Part shown: positions 7,868 through 64,000 of the stretch, piece after piece
How positions within the stretch are numbered: the first letter of the stretch is position 1
Layout: each line of letters starts with the position of its first letter
Source: Gluconacetobacter takamatsuzukensis
GTDB taxonomy: Bacteria > Pseudomonadota > Alphaproteobacteria > Acetobacterales > Acetobacteraceae
DNA: 64,000 bases
Assembly (NCBI RefSeq): GCF_014174275.1
Contig: NZ_JABEQK010000004.1
Span: forward strand, 186,001-250,000
Direction: 5' to 3'
The notes under the pieces: model-generated
What the model was told of the DNA's origin: nothing
Database searches by the model: none
Seen by the model: only the letters and a program-made list of their open reading frames with translations
Made by a program: the position numbers and the translations under genes

Positions 7868-10564
7868 ATGCTGAACAAGTCTTTCTCGCCCGGCGAGATC
7901 GAACCCGCCCTCTATGCGGAATGGGAGCGCGAGGGCGCGTTCTCGGCCGTGCCGGGCAGCAGCGCGCAACCTTATACGATCATGATCCCGCCGCCCAACG
8001 TGACCGGCACGCTGCATGTCGGCCACGCGCTGACCATGACGTTGCAGGATACGCTGATCCGCTGGCGGCGGATGCAGGGCCGCGACACGCTGTGGCAGCC
8101 GGGGACCGACCATGCCGGCATCGCCACCCAGATGGTGGTGGAGCGGACCTTGCAGAAGGAAGGCACCAGCCGGCAGGCGCTGGGGCGCGAGGCCTTCGAG
8201 CAGCGCGTGTGGCAGTGGAAGGGTGAATCCGGGGGCGGGATCACGACCCAGCTTCGGCGCCTGGGGGCGTCGCTCGACTGGCCGCGCGAGCGCTTTACCA
8301 TGGATGAGGGCCTGTCCAGCGCGGTGCGGGAGGTGTTCGTCACCCTGTATCGCGAGGGGCTGATCTATCGCGACCGGCGGCTGGTGAACTGGGACCCGGC
8401 ATTCCGCTCGGCGATTTCCGACCTCGAGGTCGATAATCGCGAGGTGCAGGGCAGCCTGTGGTATATCCGCTATCCGGTTGCCGACGACGCGGAGGGGCGG
8501 ACCATCACGGTTGCGACCACGCGGCCGGAGACGCTGCTGGGCGACATGGCGGTGGCGGTGCATCCCGAGGACGAGCGCTATGCCGGGTTGGTTGGGCGCG
8601 CGGTCGTGCTGCCGCTGACCGGGCGGCGCATTCCCATCGTGGCCGACAGCTATTCCGACCCCGAGAAGGGCAGCGGCGCGGTCAAGATCACGCCCGCGCA
8701 TGATTTCAACGATTTCGAGGTCGGGCGGCGGCACGGGCTGGCGATGCCCAGCGTGCTGGACGAGGACGCGCGGGTGACGCTGGCGGACATCGCCGACGAG
8801 TTGCAGGCGGTCGAAGGGCTGGCCGACCCCGCCTTTACGCGCGGGCTGGAAGGGCTGGGCCGTGACGAGGCGCGCAAGGCCGTGGTGGCCGAGCTGGAGC
8901 GTCTGGGCTGGCTGGAAAAGATCGAGCCGCATCGCAACCAGGTGCCGCATGCCGAGCGCAGCGGCGCGGTGGTGGAACCGCGCCTGACCACGCAATGGTA
9001 TTGCGATGCCGCGACCCTGGCCGGGCCCGCCATCGCGGCCGTGGAGACCGGGCAGGTACGCTTCGTGCCGCAACAGTGGGAGAACACGTTCTTCGCCTGG
9101 ATGCGCGATATCCAGCCCTGGTGCATCAGCCGGCAGCTCTGGTGGGGGCATCGCATCCCCGCGTGGTACGGGCCGGACGGGCATGTCTTCGTGGCGCATG
9201 ACGAGGCCGGGGCCCAGGCCGAGGCCCGGGTGCATTACGGGCGGGACGAAGTGCTGACGCGCGACGATGACGTGCTGGATACCTGGTTCTCGTCCGCTCT
9301 ATGGCCGTTCTCGACCCTCGGCTGGCCGGAGAAGACGGCGGACCTGGCGCGCTATTATCCGACCGACGTGCTGGTGACGGGCTTCGACATCATCTTCTTC
9401 TGGGTGGCCCGGATGATGATGATGGGGCTGCATTTCATGAAGGATGTGCCGTTCCGCACCGTCTTCATCCACGGGCTGGTGCGCGACGAGCGCGGGCAGA
9501 AAATGTCCAAGAGCAAGGGCAACGGCATCGATCCGCTGGACATGGTCGACCAGTATGGCGCCGATGCCCTGCGCTTTACCGTCTGTGCGCTGACCGGGCT
9601 GGGCCGCGACGTGAAGCTGGGCCAGAAGCGGATCGAGGAATATCGGTCGTTCGTGACCAAGATCTGGAACGCCGCGCGCTTCTGCGAGATGAACGGCGTA
9701 GCCCCGGTCGCGGATTTCCGGCCCGAGAGCGTGACCTCGCCGCTGGGCCGCTGGCTGCTGGACGAGGCCGCCCGCGCGGTCGCCGACGCCGATGCGGCGC
9801 TGGAGGCCTATCGTTTCGACGAATATGCGGCCGTCTGCTACCGGTTTGTCTGGAACTGCTTCTGCGACTGGTTCCTGGAATTCGCCAAGCCGGTCTTTAC
9901 CGGTAGCGACGAGGCCTTGGCGGCCGAGATCCGTGCCGTGGCGGCGCATGTGCTGGGGCTGATCCTGCGCCTGTTGCAGCCGGTCATGCCGTTTGTCACC
10001 GACGAATTGTGGGTGCAGTTCGGCTTTGGCGCGCGTGGCAGCCTGATGGTGGCGCCGTGGCCGACGCCCGAGCGCCCGGCCGATGCGGCCGAGGCGGTGG
10101 CGGAGCTGGACTGGGTGGTGCGCTTCATCTCCGCGATCCGGACCGTGCGGGCGGAGATGAACGTGCCGCCCTCGCGTCTGGCACCGGTGCTGCTGCGCGA
10201 TGCCGATGCCCGGACCGTGGAGCGCGCGACGCGCTGGGCGGAGGCGATCGGCCGCATGGCGCGCGTGTCGGCGGTCGAGCCCCTGGCCGGCGAGATGCCG
10301 CGCGGGGCCGCGCAGCTTGTGGTGGACGAGGCGACGCTGGTGATTCCGCTGGCGGGCATCATCGACCTGGACCAGGAGCGGCAGCGGCTGGAGAAGGAGC
10401 GCGGCCGGCTGGACGGCGAGATCGTGAAGGTGGAGCGCAAGCTGGGCAACGAGGATTTCGTTGCCCGTGCCAAGCCCGAGGTGGTCGAGGAAAATCGTGA
10501 GCGCCTGGCGCAGTTTCGCGACGAGCGGGTGCGAGTGGAAGCCGCGCTGGGATACCTCGCCTGA
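7868..10564 (+). CDS. valS: Valyl-tRNA synthetase
   Basis: Class I aminoacyl-tRNA synthetase that charges tRNA-Val, with an editing domain that removes misacylated threonine. The 898-residue protein has the HVGH form of the HIGH motif at residues 50-53 within PPPNVTGTLHVGH, the KMSKS motif at about residues 545-549, the CP1 editing insertion between them, an anticodon-binding domain, and a C-terminal coiled coil (EERQRLEKERGRLDGEIVKVERKL-type heptads). I chose the ATG giving MLNKSFSP, since upstream in-frame sequence reads through intergenic DNA. CTATAA about 65 bases upstream is a possible -10 element. A family A repeat begins at its stop. Confidence 0.97.
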   Translation: MLNKSFSPGEIEPALYAEWEREGAFSAVPGSSAQPYTIMIPPPNVTGTLHVGHALTMTLQDTLIRWRRMQGRDTLWQPGTDHAGIATQMVVERTLQKEGTSRQALGREAFEQRVWQWKGESGGGITTQLRRLGASLDWPRERFTMDEGLSSAVREVFVTLYREGLIYRDRRLVNWDPAFRSAISDLEVDNREVQGSLWYIRYPVADDAEGRTITVATTRPETLLGDMAVAVHPEDERYAGLVGRAVVLPLTGRRIPIVADSYSDPEKGSGAVKITPAHDFNDFEVGRRHGLAMPSVLDEDARVTLADIADELQAVEGLADPAFTRGLEGLGRDEARKAVVAELERLGWLEKIEPHRNQVPHAERSGAVVEPRLTTQWYCDAATLAGPAIAAVETGQVRFVPQQWENTFFAWMRDIQPWCISRQLWWGHRIPAWYGPDGHVFVAHDEAGAQAEARVHYGRDEVLTRDDDVLDTWFSSALWPFSTLGWPEKTADLARYYPTDVLVTGFDIIFFWVARMMMMGLHFMKDVPFRTVFIHGLVRDERGQKMSKSKGNGIDPLDMVDQYGADALRFTVCALTGLGRDVKLGQKRIEEYRSFVTKIWNAARFCEMNGVAPVADFRPESVTSPLGRWLLDEAARAVADADAALEAYRFDEYAAVCYRFVWNCFCDWFLEFAKPVFTGSDEALAAEIRAVAAHVLGLILRLLQPVMPFVTDELWVQFGFGARGSLMVAPWPTPERPADAAEAVAELDWVVRFISAIRTVRAEMNVPPSRLAPVLLRDADARTVERATRWAEAIGRMARVSAVEPLAGEMPRGAAQLVVDEATLVIPLAGIIDLDQERQRLEKERGRLDGEIVKVERKLGNEDFVARAKPEVVEENRERLAQFRDERVRVEAALGYLA

Positions 10565-10565
10565 G

Positions 10566-10725
10566 GAGCCTGACCGAAATGCGCGCTGGTGGCGATCCGA
10601 CGCGCGTTTCCTGTGCTCCGATGCTCACGGCCTATCAGGCCGCTCCGCTTCGGTGCTCGGAAACGCACGACGGGCGCGCCGCTTTGCGGCGCTCTCGCTC
10701 ACCAGCCCACATTTCGGTCAGGCTC
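10566..10725 (+). repeat. Family A dispersed repeat with 16-bp perfect terminal inverted repeats
   Basis: The 160-bp element starts one base after the valS TGA with GAGCCTGACCGAAATG and ends with its exact reverse complement CATTTCGGTCAGGCTC. The similarity of the two ends continues inward imperfectly for about 10 further bases (GCGCTGGTGGCGA versus GGGCTGGTGAGCGA). Each end forms its own hairpin: GAAATGCGCG with CGCGCGTTTC on the left, GGCGCGCCGCTTTGCGGCGC on the right. No coding sequence is inside. The architecture resembles a REPIN or MITE. With the partial copy after it, it fills most of the valS-msrA gap; the rest holds nothing I recognise. Confidence 0.8.
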
Positions 10726-10734
10726 CGGACGGTT

Positions 10735-10774
10735 GAATGAAATGCGCGCTGGCGGCGATCAGGCGCGCGTTTCC
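10735..10774 (+). repeat. Family A repeat, partial copy (left end)
   Basis: GAAATGCGCGCTGGCGGCGA followed by TCAGGCGCGCGTTTCC repeats the left hairpin of the preceding element, with the same stem arms. The terminal GAGCCTGACC is degraded here (GTTGAAT). It is a tandem partial copy between valS and msrA. Confidence 0.65.
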
Positions 10775-10889
10775 GGGCGGGCTCCGGCAATGGTCACGTT
10801 CTCTCCATCACGAGTGCTTCTCTTTCAATCCATGTCGGGGCATCACATCTTCAGACGATGCGGTGCGAATCCGACGTGGGAGACATGAG

Positions 10890-11462
10890 ATGACAAACGG
10901 AACGAAAGAGCACGACCCGTCCTGGCAGACCGCCTATCTGGCGGGCGGGTGCTTCTGGTGCACCGAGGCGGCGTTGCGTGAGCTGGCGGGAATCGAGGAT
11001 GTGACGCCGGGTTATGCCGGTGGCGATGTGCCGAACCCGAGCTATGAGCAGGTGTGCACCGGGCAGACCGGCCATGCGGAGCTTGTGCGCGTGACGTTCG
11101 ACCCCGCCATACTGTCCTATGCCGACCTGCTGCGGATCTTCTTCACGATTCACGATCCGACGACGCTGAACCGGCAGGGGGAGGATGTGGGCACCCAATA
11201 TCGCTCGGTCATCTTCCACGCGACGCCGGAGCAGGAGCGGGTGGCGCAGGAGGTGCGGGACGAGATTGCGGCGGCGCAATTGTGGCCCGATCCGATCGTG
11301 ACCGAAATCCAGAAGCTGACGCAGTTCTACGAGGCCGAGGCCTATCATCACGATTATTTCGCCAAGCATCCGGAACGCGGCTATTGCGCAGCCGTGATCG
11401 CGCCCAAGGTGGCGAAGGTGCGGCGGGTGTTCTTCGACCGGCTGGCGCTGGCGCGCCAGTAA
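10890..11462 (+). CDS. msrA: Peptide methionine sulfoxide reductase MsrA
   Basis: Reduces methionine-S-sulfoxide in proteins using thioredoxin. The 190-residue protein has the catalytic GCFWC motif (about residues 22-26), the GYAGG and GHAE(L/V)V motifs of the substrate pocket and the ...HPERGYC... C-terminal region with a likely resolving Cys. The chosen ATG follows GGGAGACATGAG. A much earlier in-frame ATG would read through the repeat region and is rejected. It is monocistronic, lying between the repeat cluster and the convergent ABC transporter genes. Length is typical for a stand-alone MsrA without MsrB. Confidence 0.95.
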   Translation: MTNGTKEHDPSWQTAYLAGGCFWCTEAALRELAGIEDVTPGYAGGDVPNPSYEQVCTGQTGHAELVRVTFDPAILSYADLLRIFFTIHDPTTLNRQGEDVGTQYRSVIFHATPEQERVAQEVRDEIAAAQLWPDPIVTEIQKLTQFYEAEAYHHDYFAKHPERGYCAAVIAPKVAKVRRVFFDRLALARQ

Positions 11463-11481
11463 CCGCCGGGGTTGCGGCGGA

Positions 11482-12828
11482 TCACTCGGTCTCGTCGTCG
11501 AGAAAGAGCTGGTCCGCTTCCTCGTCATAATCGAACAGTTCGGCGTAGCGGGCCCAGCCGATCAGGGTTTGCAGGGTCTGCTTGGCGTAGTCGGGGGACA
11601 TGCTGTCTTCCAGTTCCGCCCGGAAACGCTCGGCGCTGGCGCGGTGGTTCGGCCGGTCGTCCAGCACCGCGCGGATCACGCGGACCAGCGGGACGTTGTG
11701 CAGCAGGCTGTGCCAGAGGATCTGCCGCCGTTCGTCGTGGCTGCTCTGGACGAAGCGTGCGCCCTCGGGCGTCAGCAGGATGTCGCCGTCTTCCAGTTCG
11801 GCGAATTCCAGCAATTGCAGCGATTCGCCCAATGGGAACAGGTCGTCCAGCGCCAGTTGCAGGCGCGAGGCCAGGAGCGGCAGGTCGGCCCGGCCGTCCA
11901 GCGGGTCGGCGGCCAGGGTTTCCATCATCCCCACCATCGTGTTCATCGGCAGGTCGGGCAGGGCGACCTGGATCGGGGTTGCCGGCTGCGGCGCGGCCTC
12001 GCCCACGGGGAGTTCGGCCTCGGACACGATCGGGGCCCGGCGCGTCATCAGCGCATAGATCTGGTCGACCAGCTGGCGGAAGGCCGGATCCTCGCGGTTG
12101 CGGGGGTGGGCGAAGGGGACGGCGAGTTCGTGCGCCACGCGGCCGGGATTGGAGGAAAAGACCAGGATGCGGTCGCACATCAGGACCGCTTCCTCGATAT
12201 TATGCGTGACCAGCAGCATGGATTTGACCGGCAGCTTGCGCTCGGCCCACAGCTCGATCAGGTCGGTGCGCAGGTTTTCCGCCGTCAGCACGTCCAGCGC
12301 CGAAAAGGGCTCGTCCATCAGCAGCAGGTCGGGCTGGACCACCAGGGCGCGGGCGAGACCCACGCGCTGGCGCATGCCGCCCGAGAGTTCCTTGGGGTAG
12401 GCGTTTTCGTAGCCGCCCAGGCCGATCAGGTCGATTGCGCCCTCGGCCAGCCGGTCGCGCTCGGCGGCGGCGATGCCCTTGGCTTCCAGCCCCAGCTCCA
12501 CGTTCTTCTGCACCGACAGCCACGGGAACAGGGCGAAGGACTGGAACACCATCGCGATGCCGGGCACCGGGCCCGAGACCGGGCGGCCCTTCCACAGGAT
12601 GCTGCCCTCGGTAGGGGGCAGCAGGCCGGCCACGATGCGCAGCAGCGTCGATTTGCCCGACCCCGACCGGCCCAGCAGGCCGACGATCTCGCCCGAGCGC
12701 AGGGTGAGGTTGACGTCGTCCAGCACGACCAGGTCGGCGGCGCCGCCCTTGTGGTAGGCCTGGCGGCAGTCGATGACGCGGATCAGGTCCTCCTGATCCT
12801 CGACCTGGGGGGTGGGGGGCAGGGTCAT
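11482..12828 (-). CDS. ABC importer ATPase with AAA-associated C-terminal domain
   Basis: Nucleotide-binding subunit of a nitrate/sulfonate/bicarbonate-type ABC importer. The 448-residue protein has Walker [11 protein letters not shown]-loop FQSFALFPW, signature [15 protein letters not shown] and Walker [13 protein letters not shown] in the first 250 residues. About 150 further residues form the acidic AAA-associated C-terminal domain (ends DDETE), a recognised but functionally unclear family. It begins 23 bases after the permease stop, so the two form an operon. No periplasmic binding protein is next to them, so the substrate is unknown. The same frame is open upstream through the permease gene in another phase; that is not a fusion. 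Confidence 0.9.
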
Positions 12829-55671: not shown

Positions 55672-57618
55672 ATGGTTTCTGATTTCAATGTGTTTTCTCT
55701 GGCTACCGCGATGCGCGATCAGCGTCGCGAAATCGAGATGAGCCTGTCTGACTATCTTGAAGCCTGCCGTACCGATCCGTCCTGCTATGCAACCGCGGCG
55801 GAGCGGATGCTGAAGGCCATCGGCGAACCGAGGAGCGTCGATACCTCGCGCGATCCACGCCTGTCGCGCATCTTCATGAACCGTACCCTGCGCATCTATC
55901 CGGCGTTCTCGGACTTCTTCGGCATGGAGGAGACGATCGAGCAGATCGTGGGCTTCTTCCGCCATGCGGCGCAGGGGCTCGAGGAGCGCAAGCAGATCCT
56001 CTACCTGCTCGGCCCGGTGGGGGGCGGCAAATCGTCCCTGGGCGAGCGGCTGAAGGCGCTGATGGAGAAGGAGCCGATCTATGTGCTCAAGGCCGGGCGG
56101 CATGTCAGCCCGGTCTTCGAAAGCCCGCTGGGCCTGTTCGACCCCGACCGGATGGGGGAGGCGCTGGAGGAACGGTACGGCATTCCGCGCCGGCTGCTGG
56201 GCGGCGTTGCCAGCCCGTGGGCGCTGAAGCGGCTGGAGGAATTCGACGGCGACCTGTCGCGCTTTTCCGTCATCAAGGTGCATCCGTCGCGGTTGCGCCA
56301 GATCGCGATCGCCAAGACCGAGCCGGGCGACGACAACAACCAGGACGTATCGGCGCTGGTGGGCAAGGTCGATATCCGCCAGCTGGAGCATTTCAGCCAG
56401 AACGATCCGGATGCCTACAGCTTCTCGGGCGGGCTGAACCGCGCGAACCAGGGACTGCTGGAATTCGTCGAGATGTTCAAGGCGCCGATCAAGATGCTGC
56501 ATCCGCTGCTGACGGCGACGCAGGAGGGCAATTATGTCGGCACCGAGAATATCGGCAGCATTCCCTTTACCGGCGTGATCCTGGCCCATTCGAACGAGGC
56601 CGAGTGGCAGACCTTCCGCAACAACCGCACCAACGAGGCCTTTCTGGACCGCGTATGCGTCATCAAGGTGCCCTATTGCCTGCGGGTGGCGGAGGAGACG
56701 AAGATCTACGAGAAGCTGGTGCAGTCCTCCAGCCTGGCGAATGCGCCCTGCGCGCCCAACACGCTGGAAATGCTGGCCCGTTTCGCGGTGCTGTCCCGGC
56801 TGAAGCCGCATCCGAACTCCACCCAGTTTGCCAAGATGCGCGTCTATGACGGCGAGAACATTCGCGAGACCGACCCCAAGGCCCGCACGATGCAGGAATA
56901 TCGCGATGCCGCCGGGGTGGATGAGGGGATGGACGGGGTCTCCACCCGCTTTGCCTACAAGGTGCTGTCTGCCACCTTCAACCATGATTCGGCGGAGATT
57001 TCGGCCGATCCGGTGCATCTGATGTATGTGCTGGAACAGGCGGTGCGGCGCGAGCAGTTTCCGGCGGAAGTCGAGGCGAACTATCTGGCGACCCTGAAAT
57101 CGGAACTGGCGGGCCGTTATGCCGAATTCTTGGGCCATGAGATCCAGAAGGCGTATCTGGAGAGCTATAACGATTATGGCCAGAACCTGTTCGACCGTTA
57201 TCTGGACTATGCCGATGCCTGGATCGAGGACCAGGATTTCAAGGACCCCGATACCGGGCAGATGCTCAATCGCGAGTTGCTGAACGCGGAGCTGACCAAG
57301 ATCGAAAAGCCCGCGGGCATCGCCAACCCCAAGGATTTCCGTAACGAGGTGGTGAAGTTCTCGCTGCGCGCGCGGGCCGGCAATGGGGGGCGCAATCCGT
57401 CCTGGACATCCTACGAGAAGATCCGCGACGTGATCGAGAAGCGGATGTTCAGCCAGGTCGAGGATCTGCTGCCGGTCATCAGCTTCGGGTCCAAGAAGGA
57501 CGGCGAGACCGAGCGCAAGCATGACGAGTTCGTCGAGCGGATGGTCTCGCGGGGATATACGGAACGTCAGGTCCGCCGGCTCGTTGAATGGTACATGCGG
57601 GTGAAGCAATCCGCCTGA
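55672..57618 (+). CDS. prkA: PrkA-family serine protein kinase / AAA+ protein (YeaG-like)
   Basis: Stress-linked AAA+ ATPase fused to a kinase-like C-terminal domain, similar in length (648 residues) to E. coli YeaG and Bacillus PrkA. Walker A is GPVGGGKS at residues 114-121; the PrkA N-terminal AAA domain spans about 15-370 and the C-terminal PrkA domain about 380-640. It begins the conserved prkA-DUF444-spoVR set, which in enterobacteria is active in stationary phase and nitrogen starvation. A family B repeat starts at its stop codon and separates it from the next gene. Confidence 0.95.
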   Translation: MVSDFNVFSLATAMRDQRREIEMSLSDYLEACRTDPSCYATAAERMLKAIGEPRSVDTSRDPRLSRIFMNRTLRIYPAFSDFFGMEETIEQIVGFFRHAAQGLEERKQILYLLGPVGGGKSSLGERLKALMEKEPIYVLKAGRHVSPVFESPLGLFDPDRMGEALEERYGIPRRLLGGVASPWALKRLEEFDGDLSRFSVIKVHPSRLRQIAIAKTEPGDDNNQDVSALVGKVDIRQLEHFSQNDPDAYSFSGGLNRANQGLLEFVEMFKAPIKMLHPLLTATQEGNYVGTENIGSIPFTGVILAHSNEAEWQTFRNNRTNEAFLDRVCVIKVPYCLRVAEETKIYEKLVQSSSLANAPCAPNTLEMLARFAVLSRLKPHPNSTQFAKMRVYDGENIRETDPKARTMQEYRDAAGVDEGMDGVSTRFAYKVLSATFNHDSAEISADPVHLMYVLEQAVRREQFPAEVEANYLATLKSELAGRYAEFLGHEIQKAYLESYNDYGQNLFDRYLDYADAWIEDQDFKDPDTGQMLNRELLNAELTKIEKPAGIANPKDFRNEVVKFSLRARAGNGGRNPSWTSYEKIRDVIEKRMFSQVEDLLPVISFGSKKDGETERKHDEFVERMVSRGYTERQVRRLVEWYMRVKQSA

Positions 57619-57782
57619 GGCGCTGTTGCCCCGGCGCCGCTGCCGGCCAGTCCCTGCCTGTGTTTCGCGCCTCGCGGCGGCCGGCCCGGAAAGGCCGTCC
57701 GGCTGCGAGGCGCAAAACCCGCAAGGACGTAGCCCCAGGCGGCCCGCTGCCGACGCAGCATCAGCATTTTCGAAACAGCCTC
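57617..57782 (+). repeat. Family B structured repeat at the prkA 3' end
   Basis: The outer arms GAGGCGCTGTT and AACAGCCTC are an imperfect inverted repeat that begins inside the prkA stop codon. An inner perfect hairpin GCGCCTCGC/GCGAGGCGC lies in the middle. The right end ATTTTCGAAACAGCCTCTGA resembles the right ends after gyrB and dnaA. It lies inside the prkA-DUF444 gap, so it may attenuate but does not necessarily end transcription. Confidence 0.6.
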
Positions 57783-57804
57783 TGAACGGGAATGGTGCCG
57801 GCCA

Positions 57805-59112
57805 GTGGATATCATTGACAGACGTCCCAATCCCCATGGGAAAAACCTCGAGAACCGGCGGCGCGTGCTGCAACGCGCCCGCTCGGCCGTGCAGACGGCG
57901 GTGCGGGACGCGGTGGCGCGCGGCAAGATCCGGGAAGTGGGGCAGGGCAACGCGATTTCGGTCCCGGCGGATGCGCTGCATGAACCTTCGCTGCATCGTG
58001 TCTTCTCGGAGGGCATGCGCGAGATCGTGCTGACGGGTAACCGCGAGTTTTCGCGCGGCGACCGGCTGCAACGGCCGCCGAGCGGCGGGGCGGGGCAGGG
58101 TTCGGGGGCCGGGCAGGCCGGCGAGCAGGGGGGCGGCGAGGATTCCTTCCGCTTCGTGCTAAGCCGGGACGAATTCCTGGACCTGTTCTTCGACGATCTG
58201 GAATTGCCCGACCTGCTCAAACGCGAGATTTCGACCACCGAAAACGGCGTGCCGGCCCGCGCGGGCCTGAGCAACGAGGGAGCGCCGTCGCATCTGGACC
58301 TGGGGCGGACGATGCGGCGCTCGATCGCGCGGCGTCTGGGGCTGGGGCGGCCCAAGCCCGTGGAACTGCAGGAGGTCGAGGAACGGATCGCGGCACTGGA
58401 GGCCCTGCGGCCGGCCTCGGCCGAGGAACTGGAGGAGCTGGAAGGGCTGCGCGAACGGCGCGGCATGCTGCGCCAGCGTCTGGCGCGGATTCCGTGGGTC
58501 GATCCGGTGGACCTGCGCTTTCGGCGCTATACCATCACGCCGCAGCCGGCGACGCGGGCGGTGATGTTCTGCATCATGGATGTCTCGGGCTCGATGACCG
58601 AGCGGATGAAGGATCTGGCGAAGCAGTTCTTCCTGCTGCTGCATGTGTTTCTGGAGCGGCGGTACAAGAAGGTCGAAATCGTCTTCATTCGCCATGCCGA
58701 GAGCGCCGAGGAGGTGGACGAGGACACGTTCTTCCACGATCCGCGAACCGGCGGCACTATCGTCTCGTCTGCGCTGGAACTGATGCATACCATCCAGCGG
58801 GAGCGCTTTCCCTCGGCCAACTGGAACATCTATGTCGCCCAGGCGTCGGACGGGGACAATGCGTCGTCGGACACCACGCGCACCGCCACCCTGTTGCGGG
58901 ACGATATCCTGCCGGCGGTGCAATATTATGCCTATATCGAAATCACGGGATCGGGGGCGGTGATCCGTGGCGAGACCGATCTGTGGCGCAGCTATCGTGC
59001 CATCGCCGATGAGAACGATCATCTGGCGATCCGCCAGGTCGGCGACCGCAAGGAGATTTTCCCGGTCTTCCGCGACCTGTTTTCCCGTCAGCGCGATACG
59101 GCGGAGGCTTGA
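57805..59112 (+). CDS. DUF444 / YeaH-YhbH family protein
   Basis: Partner of PrkA in the prkA-yeaH-spoVR set, 435 residues. A vWA-like region carries a MIDAS-type DVSGS at residues 259-263 followed by a Thr/Asp-containing helix, and the N-terminal part is basic and Gly-rich with the typical DIIDRRPNPHGKN start. GTG is the start codon, supported by where the family homology begins. Function is not known biochemically. The stop overlaps the next ATG (TGATG). Confidence 0.92.
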   Translation: MDIIDRRPNPHGKNLENRRRVLQRARSAVQTAVRDAVARGKIREVGQGNAISVPADALHEPSLHRVFSEGMREIVLTGNREFSRGDRLQRPPSGGAGQGSGAGQAGEQGGGEDSFRFVLSRDEFLDLFFDDLELPDLLKREISTTENGVPARAGLSNEGAPSHLDLGRTMRRSIARRLGLGRPKPVELQEVEERIAALEALRPASAEELEELEGLRERRGMLRQRLARIPWVDPVDLRFRRYTITPQPATRAVMFCIMDVSGSMTERMKDLAKQFFLLLHVFLERRYKKVEIVFIRHAESAEEVDEDTFFHDPRTGGTIVSSALELMHTIQRERFPSANWNIYVAQASDGDNASSDTTRTATLLRDDILPAVQYYAYIEITGSGAVIRGETDLWRSYRAIADENDHLAIRQVGDRKEIFPVFRDLFSRQRDTAEA

Positions 59113-60671
59113 TGGATCAGATCATATCAGGGGGCGGCACGCCGGCCCGGTCCGGGGGGCTGCTCTATTCCGGCAATGACTGGAATTTCCAGATCATCCG
59201 CGACTGCTACGACGCGATCGAGGAGATCGCGCACGGCGAGCTGGGGCTGGAGACCTATACCAACCGGGTGGAGATCATCACTTCCGAGCAGATGCTGGAT
59301 GTCTATACCGCGCACGGCATGCCGGTGGGCTACAAGCACTGGTCGTTCGGCAAGCGCTTTATCGGCCATGAGAATGCCTATCGGCGCGGGCTGATGGGAC
59401 TGGCCTATGAGGTCGTCATCAATTCCGATCCCTGCATCAGCTATCTCATGGAGGAGAATTCGGCGACGATGCAGGCGCTGGTAATCGCGCATGCGGCGTT
59501 CGGGCATAATCACTTCTTCCGCAATAACAGGCTGTTCCGGGAATGGACGGACCCGTCCGACATCCTGGATTACCTGGAGTTCGCCCGTGGCTATATCGCC
59601 CGGTGCGAGGAGCGGCATGGCCATCGGGCGGTGGAGCGTGTGCTCGATGCCGCGCATGCCTTGCAGAACCAGGGGGTCAACCGCCATTCCGGCGCTCGCA
59701 AGCTGGACCTGAAGGCCGAGCAGCAGCGCGCCAAGGAGCGGCGGGCCTATGAGGACAGCGTCTTCAACGATCTGTGGCGGACCCTGCCGACCGAGGCGGG
59801 CGATGCGGCGGGGGCGGCCGAGGGGGCCCATGCGCGCCGCCTGTTGGGGCTTCCCGAGGAGAACCTGCTGTATTTCCTGGAGAAGAATGCCCCGCGCCTG
59901 GCCCCGTGGGAGCGGGAGATCATCCGTATCGTGCGGATGATCGCACAATATTTCTATCCGCAGCCCCAGGTGAAGATGATGAACGAGGGCTGCGCCACCT
60001 GGGTGCATGTCTACATCATGCGGCGCCTGCACGAATTGGGGCGGATCGACGACGCAGCCTATCTGGAAGTCATCCATTCGACGTCGAACGTGATCAACCA
60101 GCCTGGATTCGACATGGGGGGAGGGGCGTCGTTCAATCCCTATGCGCTGGGTTATGCGATGATGACCGATATTGCGCGCATCTGCACCGAGCCGACCGCC
60201 GAGGACCGGGAATGGTTTCCCGATATCGCGGGCAACGGGGATGCGATCGGCACGCTGCGCCATGCCTGGGCGGAATATCGGGACGAGAGCTTCATCCAGC
60301 AATTTCTGTCGCCGAAAGTGATCCGCGATTTTCGCATGTTCCGCCTCAGCGACGATACGGCCCAGCCCTATCTGCTGGTCGATGCCATTCATGACGAGGC
60401 GGGATATCGTGATATCCGCCGCAGTCTGGCGCGCGTCTATGATCCCGGCACGTTCTATACCGAGATCGAGATCGTCGATGTGGACCTGCTGGGCGACCGC
60501 ACCCTGAAGCTGGAGCACCGGACCCGGACCGGCCAGTTGCTCCAGGCCCGCGATGCGCGGCAGACGCTCGATTACCTCGCCGCCCTGTGGGGGTATGGCG
60601 TGGTTCTGAACGAGGTGGATACCCAGACGGGCGCCGTGCTGGCCACCCACACGGCGGAGCCCGCGCCGTAG
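59112..60671 (+). CDS. spoVR: SpoVR family protein (YcgB-like)
   Basis: SpoVR-family protein of unknown biochemical role, 519 residues. Characteristic parts are WNFQIIRDCYDAIEEIA, GYKHWSFGKRF near the N-terminus, and INPYALGYAMM-like FNPYALGYAMM late in the protein. The ATG overlaps the DUF444 stop; an in-frame TTG one codon earlier is possible. It is third in the prkA set and ends just before a strong terminator. Confidence 0.94.
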   Translation: MDQIISGGGTPARSGGLLYSGNDWNFQIIRDCYDAIEEIAHGELGLETYTNRVEIITSEQMLDVYTAHGMPVGYKHWSFGKRFIGHENAYRRGLMGLAYEVVINSDPCISYLMEENSATMQALVIAHAAFGHNHFFRNNRLFREWTDPSDILDYLEFARGYIARCEERHGHRAVERVLDAAHALQNQGVNRHSGARKLDLKAEQQRAKERRAYEDSVFNDLWRTLPTEAGDAAGAAEGAHARRLLGLPEENLLYFLEKNAPRLAPWEREIIRIVRMIAQYFYPQPQVKMMNEGCATWVHVYIMRRLHELGRIDDAAYLEVIHSTSNVINQPGFDMGGGASFNPYALGYAMMTDIARICTEPTAEDREWFPDIAGNGDAIGTLRHAWAEYRDESFIQQFLSPKVIRDFRMFRLSDDTAQPYLLVDAIHDEAGYRDIRRSLARVYDPGTFYTEIEIVDVDLLGDRTLKLEHRTRTGQLLQARDARQTLDYLAALWGYGVVLNEVDTQTGAVLATHTAEPAP

Positions 60672-60989: not shown

Positions 60990-62201
60990 ATGTTGGCTGA
61001 TCGGCGGTCTCGCGTTGCGCGGCGTATTTCGCGCTCCCTAGCGGTCGCCTCGGTTCTGACGGCGATCGCGGCACATGGGCCGGCGCATGCCGCCGAGCCG
61101 ATCCTGCAGACCGAGGAAAGCGACATCGTCACCCTGCCTCCCGGCGGCCCGCATCGGGTGCTGGTCGAGGACGGGGTGTATCGCCACAGCAAGGACGGGC
61201 GGGTCTATGTCGTGGACCTGGACACCGGGCGGCTGCTGGGCATGGTGCAGGCGGCCTATAACGCCAACATGGTGGCCGATCCGGCGGGCAAGGCGTTCTA
61301 TGTCGCCGAGACGACGTGGGAGCGCGGCAATCGCGGCAAGCGCCACGACATCCTGGCGGCCTACGATCCGCGCACGCTGGAACAGGTCGCGGATATCGAC
61401 CTGCCGGGCCGGGCGCTGATCACGCCCAAGAAGCCCGACATGGCGATCGGCGCCGATGGGCATTATGTCTATGTCTACGATTCCAGCCCGACCAATGCGG
61501 TCCATGTCTATGACACCGGCCTGAAATCGGTTGTGCGGACGGTGGACGTGCCGGGCTGCGGGCTGATCTTTCCGTGGGGCAATGCCGGATTTTCGTCGAT
61601 CTGCGGCGACGGGTCGCTGGCGAACGTGCAGATGGACGCCAAAGGCGCGCCGACTCTGACGCGGACCCCGCCGTTTTTCGTGCCCGATCGCGACCCGGTC
61701 TTCGAGCACAGCCCGGAGGTCGCGGCCAGCGGGCATGTCTGGTTTATTTCATACAGCGGTCTGATCTATGAGACGACACTGGGCGCGCAGTCCAGCGTCG
61801 CCAAGCCGTGGTCGATCCAGGAAGCTGCCGGCCTGAAGGCAGCGTCGGATACCCGCGCCCCGTTCGAGGTGACGTGGCGGCCCGGCGGCTGGCAGCTTGC
61901 GGCGCTGCGGGCGCGCGATTCGCATCTGTTCGTGCTGATGCATAAGGGTACGTTCTGGACCCACAAGGACGCGGGCTCCGAACTGTGGGAGCTGGACCTG
62001 AAGACGCACCGGCTGGTGCGGCGCATTCCGCTGGCCGCCCGCAGCATGATGGTCGGCGTGACGCAGGATGCGCAGTCGCGCATCATGCTGACGGATGAAG
62101 CCGGCGACCTGATGGTGCTGGACGGTGCCGACGGCAAGCCCGTGCGCAAGATTGGGGCGCTGGGCGATGCGCTGATCTTTACGGCGGCGCCTGGAGAATG
62201 A
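60990..62201 (+). CDS. mauB: Amine dehydrogenase heavy subunit (MauB/AauB-like)
   Basis: Periplasmic large subunit of a TTQ-dependent amine dehydrogenase (methylamine or aralkylamine type), a seven-bladed beta-propeller that holds the light subunit. The 403 residues start with a Sec signal peptide (RRISRSLAVASVLTAIAAHGPAHA). Family patterns include VDVPGCGLIFPWG, WRPGGWQ and FVLMHKGTFWTHKD, the last closer to aralkylamine dehydrogenase as I recall it. The start is the first ATG; no good ribosome-binding site is seen. The light-subunit gene follows after 36 bases with no mauE or mauD between. Confidence 0.88.
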   Translation: MLADRRSRVARRISRSLAVASVLTAIAAHGPAHAAEPILQTEESDIVTLPPGGPHRVLVEDGVYRHSKDGRVYVVDLDTGRLLGMVQAAYNANMVADPAGKAFYVAETTWERGNRGKRHDILAAYDPRTLEQVADIDLPGRALITPKKPDMAIGADGHYVYVYDSSPTNAVHVYDTGLKSVVRTVDVPGCGLIFPWGNAGFSSICGDGSLANVQMDAKGAPTLTRTPPFFVPDRDPVFEHSPEVAASGHVWFISYSGLIYETTLGAQSSVAKPWSIQEAAGLKAASDTRAPFEVTWRPGGWQLAALRARDSHLFVLMHKGTFWTHKDAGSELWELDLKTHRLVRRIPLAARSMMVGVTQDAQSRIMLTDEAGDLMVLDGADGKPVRKIGALGDALIFTAAPGE

Positions 62202-62237
62202 GCCCCCGGAATGATCCCCGCGTGACGGAGAAACGAT

Positions 62238-62810
62238 ATGCCCAATCCTGAAGACAGGGGGGCCGTCGGCGTGACGCGGAACGGCCTCGACACCATGGCC
62301 GAACGGCTTGCCCGCCATCTTGCCGGCCGTTCCTCCCGCCGCAGCGCGCTTGCGCGGCTGGGCGGGTGGGCCGCCGCGATTCCGGCCTTTCCGCTGTTGC
62401 CGGTCTGGCGGCGCGACGCGCGGGCCGCAGCGCCTGCTGCGCCGTCGCCCTTTGCCGCCAAGGCGCAGGCCAAGGACGATACGAAGTGCGATTACTGGCG
62501 TTATTGCGCCATTGACGGCAATCTGTGCACCACCTGCGGCGGTGGCGTTCATAGCTGCCCGCCGGGGACGCATCCGTCGCCGACCTCGTGGATCGGCACT
62601 TGTTTCAACCCGCAGGACCGTCGCGCGTACCTGATCGCCTATCGCGATTGCTGCGGGCAGGATGCCTGCAACGAGCAGAATTGCCTGGGCACCGATGGCG
62701 ACCTGCCGACCTATCGTCCGCAGGCCAATAACGACATCATCTGGTGTTTCGGGACCGGCTCGCTGCTTTATAATTGTTCGACCGCCGTGATTGTAGGAAC
62801 TGCCGAATGA
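62238..62810 (+). CDS. mauA: Amine dehydrogenase light subunit with TTQ tryptophans (MauA/AauA-like)
   Basis: Catalytic light subunit whose two Trp residues are post-translationally made into tryptophan tryptophylquinone. The long N-terminal leader has a twin-arginine-like SRRSALARLGGW, typical of MauA. The mature part has CDYWRYCAIDGN, SWIGTC with Trp118, and IIWCFG with Trp169; the 51-residue spacing equals that of the known TTQ pair. Asp137 in YRDCCG is the conserved catalytic acid, and there are 12 Cys as needed for six disulfides. TPSPTSWIGTC resembles aralkylamine dehydrogenase. The stop overlaps the next cytochrome gene (ATGA). Confidence 0.92.
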   Translation: MPNPEDRGAVGVTRNGLDTMAERLARHLAGRSSRRSALARLGGWAAAIPAFPLLPVWRRDARAAAPAAPSPFAAKAQAKDDTKCDYWRYCAIDGNLCTTCGGGVHSCPPGTHPSPTSWIGTCFNPQDRRAYLIAYRDCCGQDACNEQNCLGTDGDLPTYRPQANNDIIWCFGTGSLLYNCSTAVIVGTAE

Positions 62811-63262
62811 AGAAAATCCTTACCCTGGCCCTGTGTCTGGGTGCCGCGACCCCGGCTTTTGCCGCGCCGGATGGCCAGGCGCTCTACGGTGCCAATTGCG
62901 GCATCTGCCACCAGGGCGGTGGTGTCGGCGCGCCGGGGCAGTTTCCGCCGCTGGCCAACCGAATCGACAAGATCGTCTCGACGCCCGAAGGCAAGAAATA
63001 CGTGACCGAAGTGCTGATGAACGGTCTGGCCGGCTCGATCGACGTGGCCGGCATGACCTATGTCGGCTTCATGCCCAGCTTCAAGAGCCTGTCGGATGAC
63101 GACGTGGCGGCGATCCTGAGCTATCTGTCGTCGCTGGGTGGCACCAAGCCCGCGCCCGTGGTCACGCCGGCGGATGTGGCGGCCGCGCGCGCCGCGCCGA
63201 TGGCCTCCTCGGCCGTGGCGGCGGCCCGCAAGGAGCTGAACGCGGCGCATCCGCTGCCATAA
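62807..63262 (+). CDS. Monoheme c-type cytochrome, coupled to the amine dehydrogenase
   Basis: Exported cytochrome c, 151 residues, with a Sec signal peptide (MKKILTLALCLGAATPAFA) and one heme site CGICH at residues 31-35. A Met ligand is plausible at GFMPSF. The C-terminal tail is Ala/Pro-rich. It overlaps the light-subunit stop by four bases, so it is translated with it and is the likely electron acceptor, taking the place of amicyanin in classical mau clusters. A family A repeat begins two bases after its stop. Confidence 0.9.
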   Translation: MKKILTLALCLGAATPAFAAPDGQALYGANCGICHQGGGVGAPGQFPPLANRIDKIVSTPEGKKYVTEVLMNGLAGSIDVAGMTYVGFMPSFKSLSDDDVAAILSYLSSLGGTKPAPVVTPADVAAARAAPMASSAVAAARKELNAAHPLP

Positions 63263-63385: not shown

Positions 63386-63928
63386 ATGTTCAAGAATACA
63401 CGCCTTGCGTGCCGCTATGGGGTGCGCTTGCTCGGCCGATCGATTTTTCAGGTGTGTTCAAGGTCCGGTGGGCGTTTTGCGCGCGTGACGCGGTCGGGCG
63501 TGGTGATGGCCGCCATGGCCGGGCTGATGATGTCGGGGCAGGCTGCGCTGGCGCTGGACCAGGTGCGCACCACCTATCTGGAAAAATGCGGCGGTTGCCA
63601 TGGGATCGAGGGGCTATCCGGGCAGACCTATATTCCGACGCTGCGCGACCGGATCGGGACGTTGAGCTGCACGCCGGAGGGCCGGGCCTATCTGCTGACC
63701 GTGCCCGGCGTTTCGATGTCGTTGATTCGCGACGATGCGCTGATGGCGCAGGTGATGAATTTTGTGCTGTTCGATCTCGGCGGCCACAGCACGCCGGCCG
63801 GCACGCGCCCCTTCACGGCGGAAGAGGTTCATACCCAGCGCGGCCACCCGTTGAGCACCACCGACCTGCCGGCGGTAAGGGCCCAGGTCTGGGCACGGGC
63901 TACCGCATGTGCGGCAGGCCACCGGTAA
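63386..63928 (+). CDS. Second monoheme c-type cytochrome
   Basis: Small cytochrome c-like protein, one heme site CGGCH at residues 68-72 with this start. The first 40 residues are Arg-rich and a hydrophobic segment VVMAAMAGLMMSGQAALA acts as signal peptide, so initiation at an in-frame GTG (63485) or ATG (63506) would give a more standard leader. The rest has no recognised domain beyond c-type cytochrome and no second CxxCH, so it is not MauG. It follows the amine dehydrogenase cytochrome by 120 bases and could be a further electron carrier or a maturation factor. Confidence 0.75.
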   Translation: MFKNTRLACRYGVRLLGRSIFQVCSRSGGRFARVTRSGVVMAAMAGLMMSGQAALALDQVRTTYLEKCGGCHGIEGLSGQTYIPTLRDRIGTLSCTPEGRAYLLTVPGVSMSLIRDDALMAQVMNFVLFDLGGHSTPAGTRPFTAEEVHTQRGHPLSTTDLPAVRAQVWARATACAAGHR

Positions 63929-63955: not shown

Positions 63956-64000
63956 GAGCCGGTCCGGAAATGCGCGCTGGTGGGCGAGAGCGGCCCTGAG
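63956..64000 (+). repeat. Family A repeat, cut by the window edge
   Basis: GAGCCGGTCCGGAAATGCGC followed by GCTGGTGGGCGAGAGCGGCC combines the terminal sequence and the GAGCGAGAGCG segment of the other element end. It begins 27 bases after the last gene; the rest is beyond the window. Confidence 0.55.

Follow-up and report, generated by a model that had tools for sequence, protein, structure and literature searches.

The window analyzed here is a 64,000-nucleotide stretch of DNA (contig C4, positions 186001 to 250000) from a 3.78-Mb Gluconacetobacter genome. Close to its end lies a locus for an amine dehydrogenase predicted to carry the cofactor tryptophan tryptophylquinone (TTQ), which appears to be one of two such enzymes in this organism. 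A preliminary description of the window had reported a heavy chain, a light chain with its two TTQ tryptophans 51 residues apart and 12 cysteines, and a cytochrome c between 60990 and 63262, with a 36-base gap separating the subunit genes and no mauE, mauD, or mauG at the locus. Matches to PF06433, PF02975, and PF00034 confirm the three genes, the gap is indeed at 62202-62237, and the MauE match over the cut-off and all MauD-like and CCP_MauG matches of the genome fall on contigs other than C4. The term "minimal" used in that description therefore holds for the absence of mauE, mauD, and mauG, but a fourth gene, here called cytB, had been missed. The features of the locus are as follows.

60990..62201, plus strand: TTQ amine dehydrogenase heavy (alpha) chain; PF06433, 167 bits
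62202..62237, no strand: 36-base gap at the position of mauE-mauD in relatives (from the sequence; in Ameyamaea locus L060, the pair separates the heavy- and light-chain genes)
62238..62810, plus strand: TTQ amine dehydrogenase light (beta) chain; PF02975, 173 bits; TIGR02659
62589..62591, plus strand: codon of TTQ Trp118 of the light chain (sequence and alignment to methylamine dehydrogenase light chains)
62742..62744, plus strand: codon of TTQ Trp169 of the light chain (sequence and the same alignment)
62807..63262, plus strand: cytA, a monohaem cytochrome c; PF00034, 45.6 bits
63386..63928, plus strand: cytB, a second monohaem c-type cytochrome lacking the Met segment; no Pfam match; start uncertain, with an alternative ATG at 63506

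The subunits have the hallmarks of the TTQ amine dehydrogenase family, namely the PF06433 and PF02975 matches and, in the light chain, W118 and W169 at a spacing of 51, 12 cysteines, and the conserved aspartate (D93 and D137 are both present). We take Trp118 and Trp169 to be Trp57 and Trp108 of methylamine dehydrogenase (MADH), and both residues, together with a YRDCCG motif, match the MADH light chains in the PDB (3c75_L and others). The light chain scores 116 to 140 bits against mature MADH chains (181 against one that includes its leader) and about 120 to 122 bits against aromatic amine dehydrogenase (AADH), and it lies narrowly above the TIGR02659 methylamine dehydrogenase (amicyanin) equivalog cut-off (198.5 versus 196.85 bits). 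The heavy chain is below the TIGR02658 MADH equivalog cut-off (175.7 versus 454.45 bits) and resembles MADH and AADH chains of the PDB alike (139 and 137 bits), so no substrate is assigned. The ATG of cytA overlaps the light-chain stop codon.

Upstream of the locus, genes for PrkA kinase, a DUF444 protein, and SpoVR stand in a row (55672-60671), next to the minimal locus in 13 of 13 genomes. Downstream, past the end of the window, come a 253-aa open reading frame (ORF) that we call orf253, IMPDH, RsmB, and others. The ten ORFs from 63386 on, nine of them beyond the window and reaching about 11 kb past it, encode IMPDH, RsmB, an antiporter, and other proteins or products of no family, and no mau gene is among them. 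Profile searches of the whole genome, a check suggested in the preliminary description, gave no above-cut-off MauE, MauD-like, or CCP_MauG match on C4; the above-cut-off MauE and both MauD-like matches are on contig C7, and three CCP_MauG matches are on C3, C6, and C8. Maturation genes just past position 64000 are thus rejected, and of the sources of maturation that had been proposed, downstream encoding is not borne out, whereas supply in trans is well supported for mauE and mauD by the second cluster and the trees described below.

The second PF02975 light chain of the genome lies on C7, in a cluster (L004) with the order heavy-mauD-light-cytB-mauE-mauD, as read with profile hidden Markov models (HMMs).

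L004:7730-8905: heavy chain
L004, about 8904-9519: first MauD-like gene, between the subunit genes
L004:9559-10110: light chain (PF02975)
L004, about 10149-10667: cytB
L004:10737-11276: MauE
L004, about 11273-11839: second MauD-like gene

This cluster holds the sole MauE in the genome over the Pfam cut-off (86 bits; another match, of 21.5 bits, is below it). It also holds both of the genome's MauD-like genes, which score about 130 bits each, under the TIGR02661 equivalog cut-off of 188.6. In the HMM reading of the loci, one profile, that of the cluster's second (other) mauD, was used for both. The second cluster encodes the same enzyme family as the window locus, with heavy chains 44.2% and light chains 63.5% identical, and cytB is present in both. 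Unlike the window locus, it has its own mauD between the subunit genes, a mauE-mauD pair at its 3' end, and no cytA match. There is no MauG near either locus. A TonB-dependent receptor gene (L004, 4858-7665) lies directly upstream of the second cluster, as one does upstream of the Novosphingobium plasmid clusters L260 and L264.

A PF02975 light chain is present in 19 of 299 genomes that sample the family, exceeding the cut-off in 18 of them, and in all 14 genomes of the genus, which named relatives with 94 to 98% identical light chains place as Gluconacetobacter. We read 47 loci over the cut-off with profile HMMs, leaving out one weak match (G122; 22 bits, internal stops). Thirteen of these loci have the minimal order heavy-light-cytA-cytB; they come one each from 13 of the 14 genus genomes, and every one of them has cytB. 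The same 13 genomes each carry the second cluster type with mauE and two mauD genes. The helper genes that the window locus lacks thus adjoin, in this genus, the genes of a second, related enzyme. In the 14th genome (87% complete, 1,310 contigs), a third type was the only one found. That type (L073-L079; heavy-mauE-mauD-light-cytA-cytB, or the same without cytA) occurs in some Gluconacetobacter and has a tree position away from the window type. At the 14 loci outside the genus, mauE and mauD are both near the light chain in 13 and mauD alone in one (L059, Ameyamaea). The heavy-chain gene of another locus, L064 (G169, 9710-10947), is broken across two reading frames. An assembly artefact is rejected as the source of the minimal locus, as the same arrangement and flanks recur in 13 genomes.

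In a midpoint-rooted tree built from the heavy and light chains of all 47 loci, a branch with a Shimodaira-Hasegawa-like approximate likelihood ratio test (SH-aLRT) support of 100 sets the 13 minimal loci apart. They are nested in a set of 21 loci (SH-aLRT 99) with eight heavy-mauE-mauD-light clusters of other acetic acid bacteria. All 13 are flanked by SpoVR on one side and by orf253-IMPDH-RsmB on the other. The comparison of neighbourhoods in acetic acid bacteria that the preliminary description had called for shows that Ameyamaea chiangmaiensis (L060) keeps the pair inside the cluster, in the order heavy-mauE-mauD-light-cytA-cytB, followed by the same orf253-IMPDH-RsmB. The tree position of the minimal loci and this Ameyamaea arrangement suggest that mauE-mauD departed from the window site, and the simplest reading is that the pair left the exact place now held by the 36-base gap. 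The ancestral window locus would then have had the order seen in Ameyamaea and other acetic acid bacteria, and in the ancestor of the genus mauE-mauD would have moved to the 3' end of the second TTQ cluster.

Trees of the maturation genes are consistent with this destination. These were built from chosen loci out of 172: 69 mauD genes from 44 loci for the mauD tree and 35 loci for the joined mauE and mauD tree. The MauE-adjacent mauD of the second cluster groups with the between-subunit mauD of window-type clusters (99, 27 rows). The other mauD of the second cluster groups with the mauD of an Ameyamaea second cluster and with lone mauD genes near Acetobacter, Gluconobacter, Asaia, and Komagataeibacter clusters (99, 26 rows). 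Support for the matching group in the mauE tree is lower (90, 20 rows), and the mauE of Gluconobacter and Asaia falls outside it. In the joined tree, the second-cluster pairs (8 of the 13 loci were used) lie inside the window-type clade with support of 100/100; this clade has 23 rows, of which 14 are window-type, 8 are second-cluster, and 1 is from G037. Together with the mauE-mauD genes between the Ameyamaea subunits, this placement suggests that the pair was probably relocated and acts in trans, with MauE and MauD from the second cluster assisting disulfide formation in the window light chain. General periplasmic disulfide enzymes might instead mature this chain, with second-cluster mauE and mauD serving their own enzyme only, but we consider this quite unlikely, given that the second-cluster pair belongs with window-type pairs and that the second cluster has a further mauD of its own.

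Minimal copies beside a full cluster elsewhere lend support to the relocation. Bacterium HR40 has a minimal copy (L178) and a full cluster (L181), the same two loci being found in G536, and in Acetobacter okinawensis and A. syzygii a full cluster is accompanied by a heavy-light-cytB copy (L127 and L129, read within the upstream bounds of these loci). Several points weigh against it. A locus in a metagenome-assembled genome (L179, 12 kb) is minimal without a known partner cluster. The Ameyamaea contig begins 722 bases before the heavy-chain frame; its upstream flank is therefore not visible, and only the downstream flank can be compared. An approximately unbiased (AU) test of window-type plus second-cluster mauE-mauD alone as a clade gave a p value of 0.147, so that this clade is neither rejected nor demonstrated. 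The test is undecided because the best tree has a long-branched pair from G037 inside the clade, and the donor lineage of mauE-mauD is therefore not exact. Finally, the trees are midpoint-rooted.

Two of these loci have further features. In G037 (L061, 7456-11523), mauE-mauD lies upstream of a heavy-mauD-light-cytB cluster of the second type and groups with window-type pairs, which looks like another relocation of the pair. The heavy-light pair of HR40 (6547-8339 of L178; also L199) has no mauE, mauD, or cytB match within about 8 kb, and the full cluster of that genome is L181/L200.

A locus without two genes that, as the preliminary description assumed, are required in described systems could be decaying, with no active enzyme made. 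This is very unlikely. The minimal locus is kept in 13 of the 14 genus genomes, and the 12 cysteines and both tryptophans are intact in the window light chain. Further, in 28 pairwise comparisons among 8 of the 13 loci, the ratio of nonsynonymous to synonymous substitution rates (dN/dS) is 0.19 for the heavy chain, 0.08 for the light chain, 0.15 for cytA, and 0.23 for cytB, indicating that purifying selection acts on all four genes. Such low ratios and the occurrence in 13 of 14 genomes argue that the arrangement is not due to chance.

The preliminary description also took MauG to be needed for TTQ synthesis. To recognize MauG, we used an HMM from Paracoccus MauG and its matches, because TIGR03791 was too weak and was rejected; Paracoccus MauG itself scores 96.8 against its cut-off of 443.85. 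This HMM has no match in loci numbered below L197, the window locus (L003) included. A nearby mauG is lacking for 166 of 174 light chains. PF03150 (MauG/CcP) has a match in 34 of 45 other TTQ-positive genomes and none in 11 (G178, G219, G314, G447, G505, G536, G541, G573, G733, G851, and G918). At a completeness of at least 90% and a contamination of at most 5%, 9 of 41 TTQ-positive genomes are without a match. The same search recovered the mauG of G618, three of the genomes without a match (G314, G733, and G851) are single contigs, and cytB stands beside a light chain in all 11. The assumed requirement for MauG thus does not transfer to these enzymes, and TTQ would be formed without it here, as in other mauG-less clusters. 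The counts for light chains and genomes together suggest that the idea of a different set of proteins, also put forward earlier, fits the TTQ-forming step.

A MauG-like diheme enzyme encoded elsewhere, the C6 or C8 protein, could in principle form TTQ. Of the genome's three CCP_MauG proteins, that on C3 is a relative of cytochrome c peroxidase with three CXXCH motifs (428 bits to 9qdt). The C8 protein has its best PDB match in 6nx0 (205.7 bits), presumably BthA, followed by MauG (127 bits), and the C6 protein is similar to it in family scores. In favor of a diheme enzyme are the three CCP_MauG proteins themselves, the likeness of the C8 protein to 6nx0 and then to MauG, an aldehyde dehydrogenase gene near the C8 gene, and the stable bis-Fe(IV) state that BthA shows (PMC6405878). 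However, the 11 genomes without a PF03150 match argue against it, and the few neighbouring genes scanned (for C8, PqiA, PqiB, and aldehyde dehydrogenase; for C6, a phosphoesterase) included none recognised as acting in amine oxidation itself. We regard such an enzyme as unlikely to be responsible. Loci L013 (4054-5469) and L014 (4607-6070) each encode a diheme protein of the CCP_MauG family; that of L013 resembles 6nx0 more closely than MauG and adjoins pqiAB.

The fourth gene of the window locus offers another candidate. cytB is a c-type cytochrome with one CXXCH and not the two c-type haems of a MauG. In profile and fold it is nearest to Thermus c552 (1c52, 1dt1), although the Foldseek E-value is weak and only Foldseek-ranked chains were compared. 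It has the CXXCH and fold of a class I c552-type cytochrome and lacks the axial Met ligand: its profile alignment skips residues 52 to 72 of the Thermus thermophilus c552 chain, which we take to hold the axial Met and which have no counterpart in cytB. A 20-residue segment ending in the presumed axial Met is absent from 103 of 103 non-redundant cytB sequences, whereas the Met of the M-P motif is present in 46 of 46 non-redundant cytA sequences. These counts come from ORFs with exactly one CXXCH (77 cytA and 160 cytB before redundancy was removed) and include cytA matches not adjacent to a light chain. A second-cluster cytB in G215 (L084, 8153-8860) has no in-frame CXXCH; its near-identical counterpart in G174 (L097) does, and a sequencing error may account for the difference.

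Across 172 loci with 174 light chains, HMMs place cytB near 163, mauG near 8, neither near 3, and both near none. Thus, cytB is near 163 of the 166 light chains without a nearby mauG. The 174 light chains include near copies and duplicate records of the same strains; with near copies removed, the 106 representatives used in the tree comprise 98 with cytB, 6 with mauG, and 2 with neither. Paracoccus accounts for five of the eight mauG loci, and Methylobacterium, Indioceanicola, and G618 (with one of its two loci) for one each; all have mauF and mauJ. Of the three light chains with neither gene, two are records of the HR40 minimal copy and the third is that of L179. In G618, a mau-type cluster with mauF, mauJ, and mauG (L202) and a separate cytB-type cluster (L205) occur in one genome. 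A divergent locus on a Thermomicrobium roseum plasmid (L249, 1929-10660) has four short Cys-rich light-chain-like genes and MauE- and MauD-like genes, without a heavy-chain or cytB match; its light-chain-like genes are under the score cut and were left out of the 174.

One set of relatives in this collection consists of the best 80 loci of 566 and is biased to window-like chains; two genome draws, from the class and the phylum, do not share this bias. Among 385 genomes drawn from the class, 12 have a light chain above the cut-off, and the cytB profile exceeds 90 bits in exactly those 12, the next-best score being 33 bits. The draw from the phylum comprises 398 genomes, of which 12 have a light chain above the cut-off; the match in G923 is marginal (25.1 bits), and the remaining 11 are the only genomes in which cytB exceeds 80 bits. 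Across the two draws, cytB coincides exactly with strong light chains and so marks TTQ loci. Two genomes of this draw without a light-chain match, G743 and G836, reach 48 to 49 bits with the cytB profile across its C-terminal half only. Both draws include the window genome, which, like HR40 (G536), contributed rows to the cytB profile. The loci read from the two draws include no genome with a mauG cluster alone, as G618 has both kinds. For plasmids, 20 of 31 matches were read, and about 16 kb per record was examined around the mauG clusters, which leaves room for cytB elsewhere in those strains.

In the tree of light chains, a single branch (99) separates the mauG group from the rest, and the midpoint root places that group among the cytB types. 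The exchange between cytB and mauG is therefore one switch, not many, with a direction that depends on the root, and because it is a single change on this tree the mutual exclusion counts as one event. This, together with the small size, c-type haem, and c552 likeness of cytB, favors the view that cytB is merely an electron carrier of the dehydrogenase, with TTQ arising by autocatalysis or through an unlinked enzyme. Electron acceptors are normal in amine dehydrogenase clusters. Formation of the first hydroxy-Trp of MADH is also described as probably autocatalytic (PMC7876137). Against the carrier role, loss of the Met segment from every cytB, when cytA keeps its Met, would be odd in a dedicated carrier. 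Similarly, two mauG clusters without an amicyanin match (L202 and L245, the latter with another c-type cytochrome gene upstream) are also without cytB, suggesting that the absence of cytB tracks mauG and not amicyanin. We give the carrier role a little short of an even chance.

The role we tentatively propose is that cytB is the TTQ-forming factor of MauG-less amine dehydrogenases, its open haem reacting with peroxide or oxygen and oxidising the light-chain tryptophans as diheme MauG does. Under this proposal, which we hold as a possibility clearly below an even chance, cytB would work like MauG without being a MauG, and it and mauG (with mauF and mauJ) may, with the same reserve, substitute for each other. 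A point against cytB in TTQ formation is that recombinant AADH has reportedly been produced in a Paracoccus host with aauBEDA plus a single cytochrome gene, provided that this gene was cytA and that no MauG came from the host.

The closest described clusters are of the aau and mau kinds. The aau cluster of a Pseudomonas aeruginosa plasmid (L247), annotated aauB-mauE-mauD-aauA with two cytochrome genes, has heavy and light chains, HMM matches to cytA and cytB right after the light chain, and no mauG, mauF, or mauJ match, all as at the window locus. Unlike such an aauBEDA cluster, the window locus has no mauE-mauD between its subunit genes, the pair being in another cluster; the cytochromes are shared. 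The aau cluster of Alcaligenes faecalis is likewise said to have a small monohaem cytochrome and no mauG, and to our knowledge TTQ formation without MauG is an open question for AADH. The mau cluster of Paracoccus denitrificans PD1222 (L246) has the same two subunit families and TTQ residues as the window locus, but its mauF, mauE, mauD, mauC, mauJ, mauG, mauM, and mauN are without counterpart there, where two small cytochromes stand instead. A literature search, with subscription papers on aau outside its scope, gave no recognised account of cytB, its missing Met segment, Gluconacetobacter TTQ loci, or mauE-mauD acting in trans.

Sequence comparison establishes the presence and absence of genes, the downstream synteny, the tree placements, and the co-occurrence. 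From these we consider it likely that a relocated mauE-mauD pair supports disulfide maturation in trans, that TTQ forms without MauG, and that cytB, which both clusters carry, is the best candidate among the cluster-encoded proteins for the redox partner of the TTQ-forming step. The window enzyme most likely kept its disulfide helpers, which now stand beside a paralogue. The relocated pair would be a natural example of maturation genes shared by two paralogous enzymes, and it warns that a missing accessory gene should not be read as a new pathway. The MauG question points to cytB as the more interesting lead, and the comparison singles out the cytB gene and its haem site as a way into TTQ formation without MauG.

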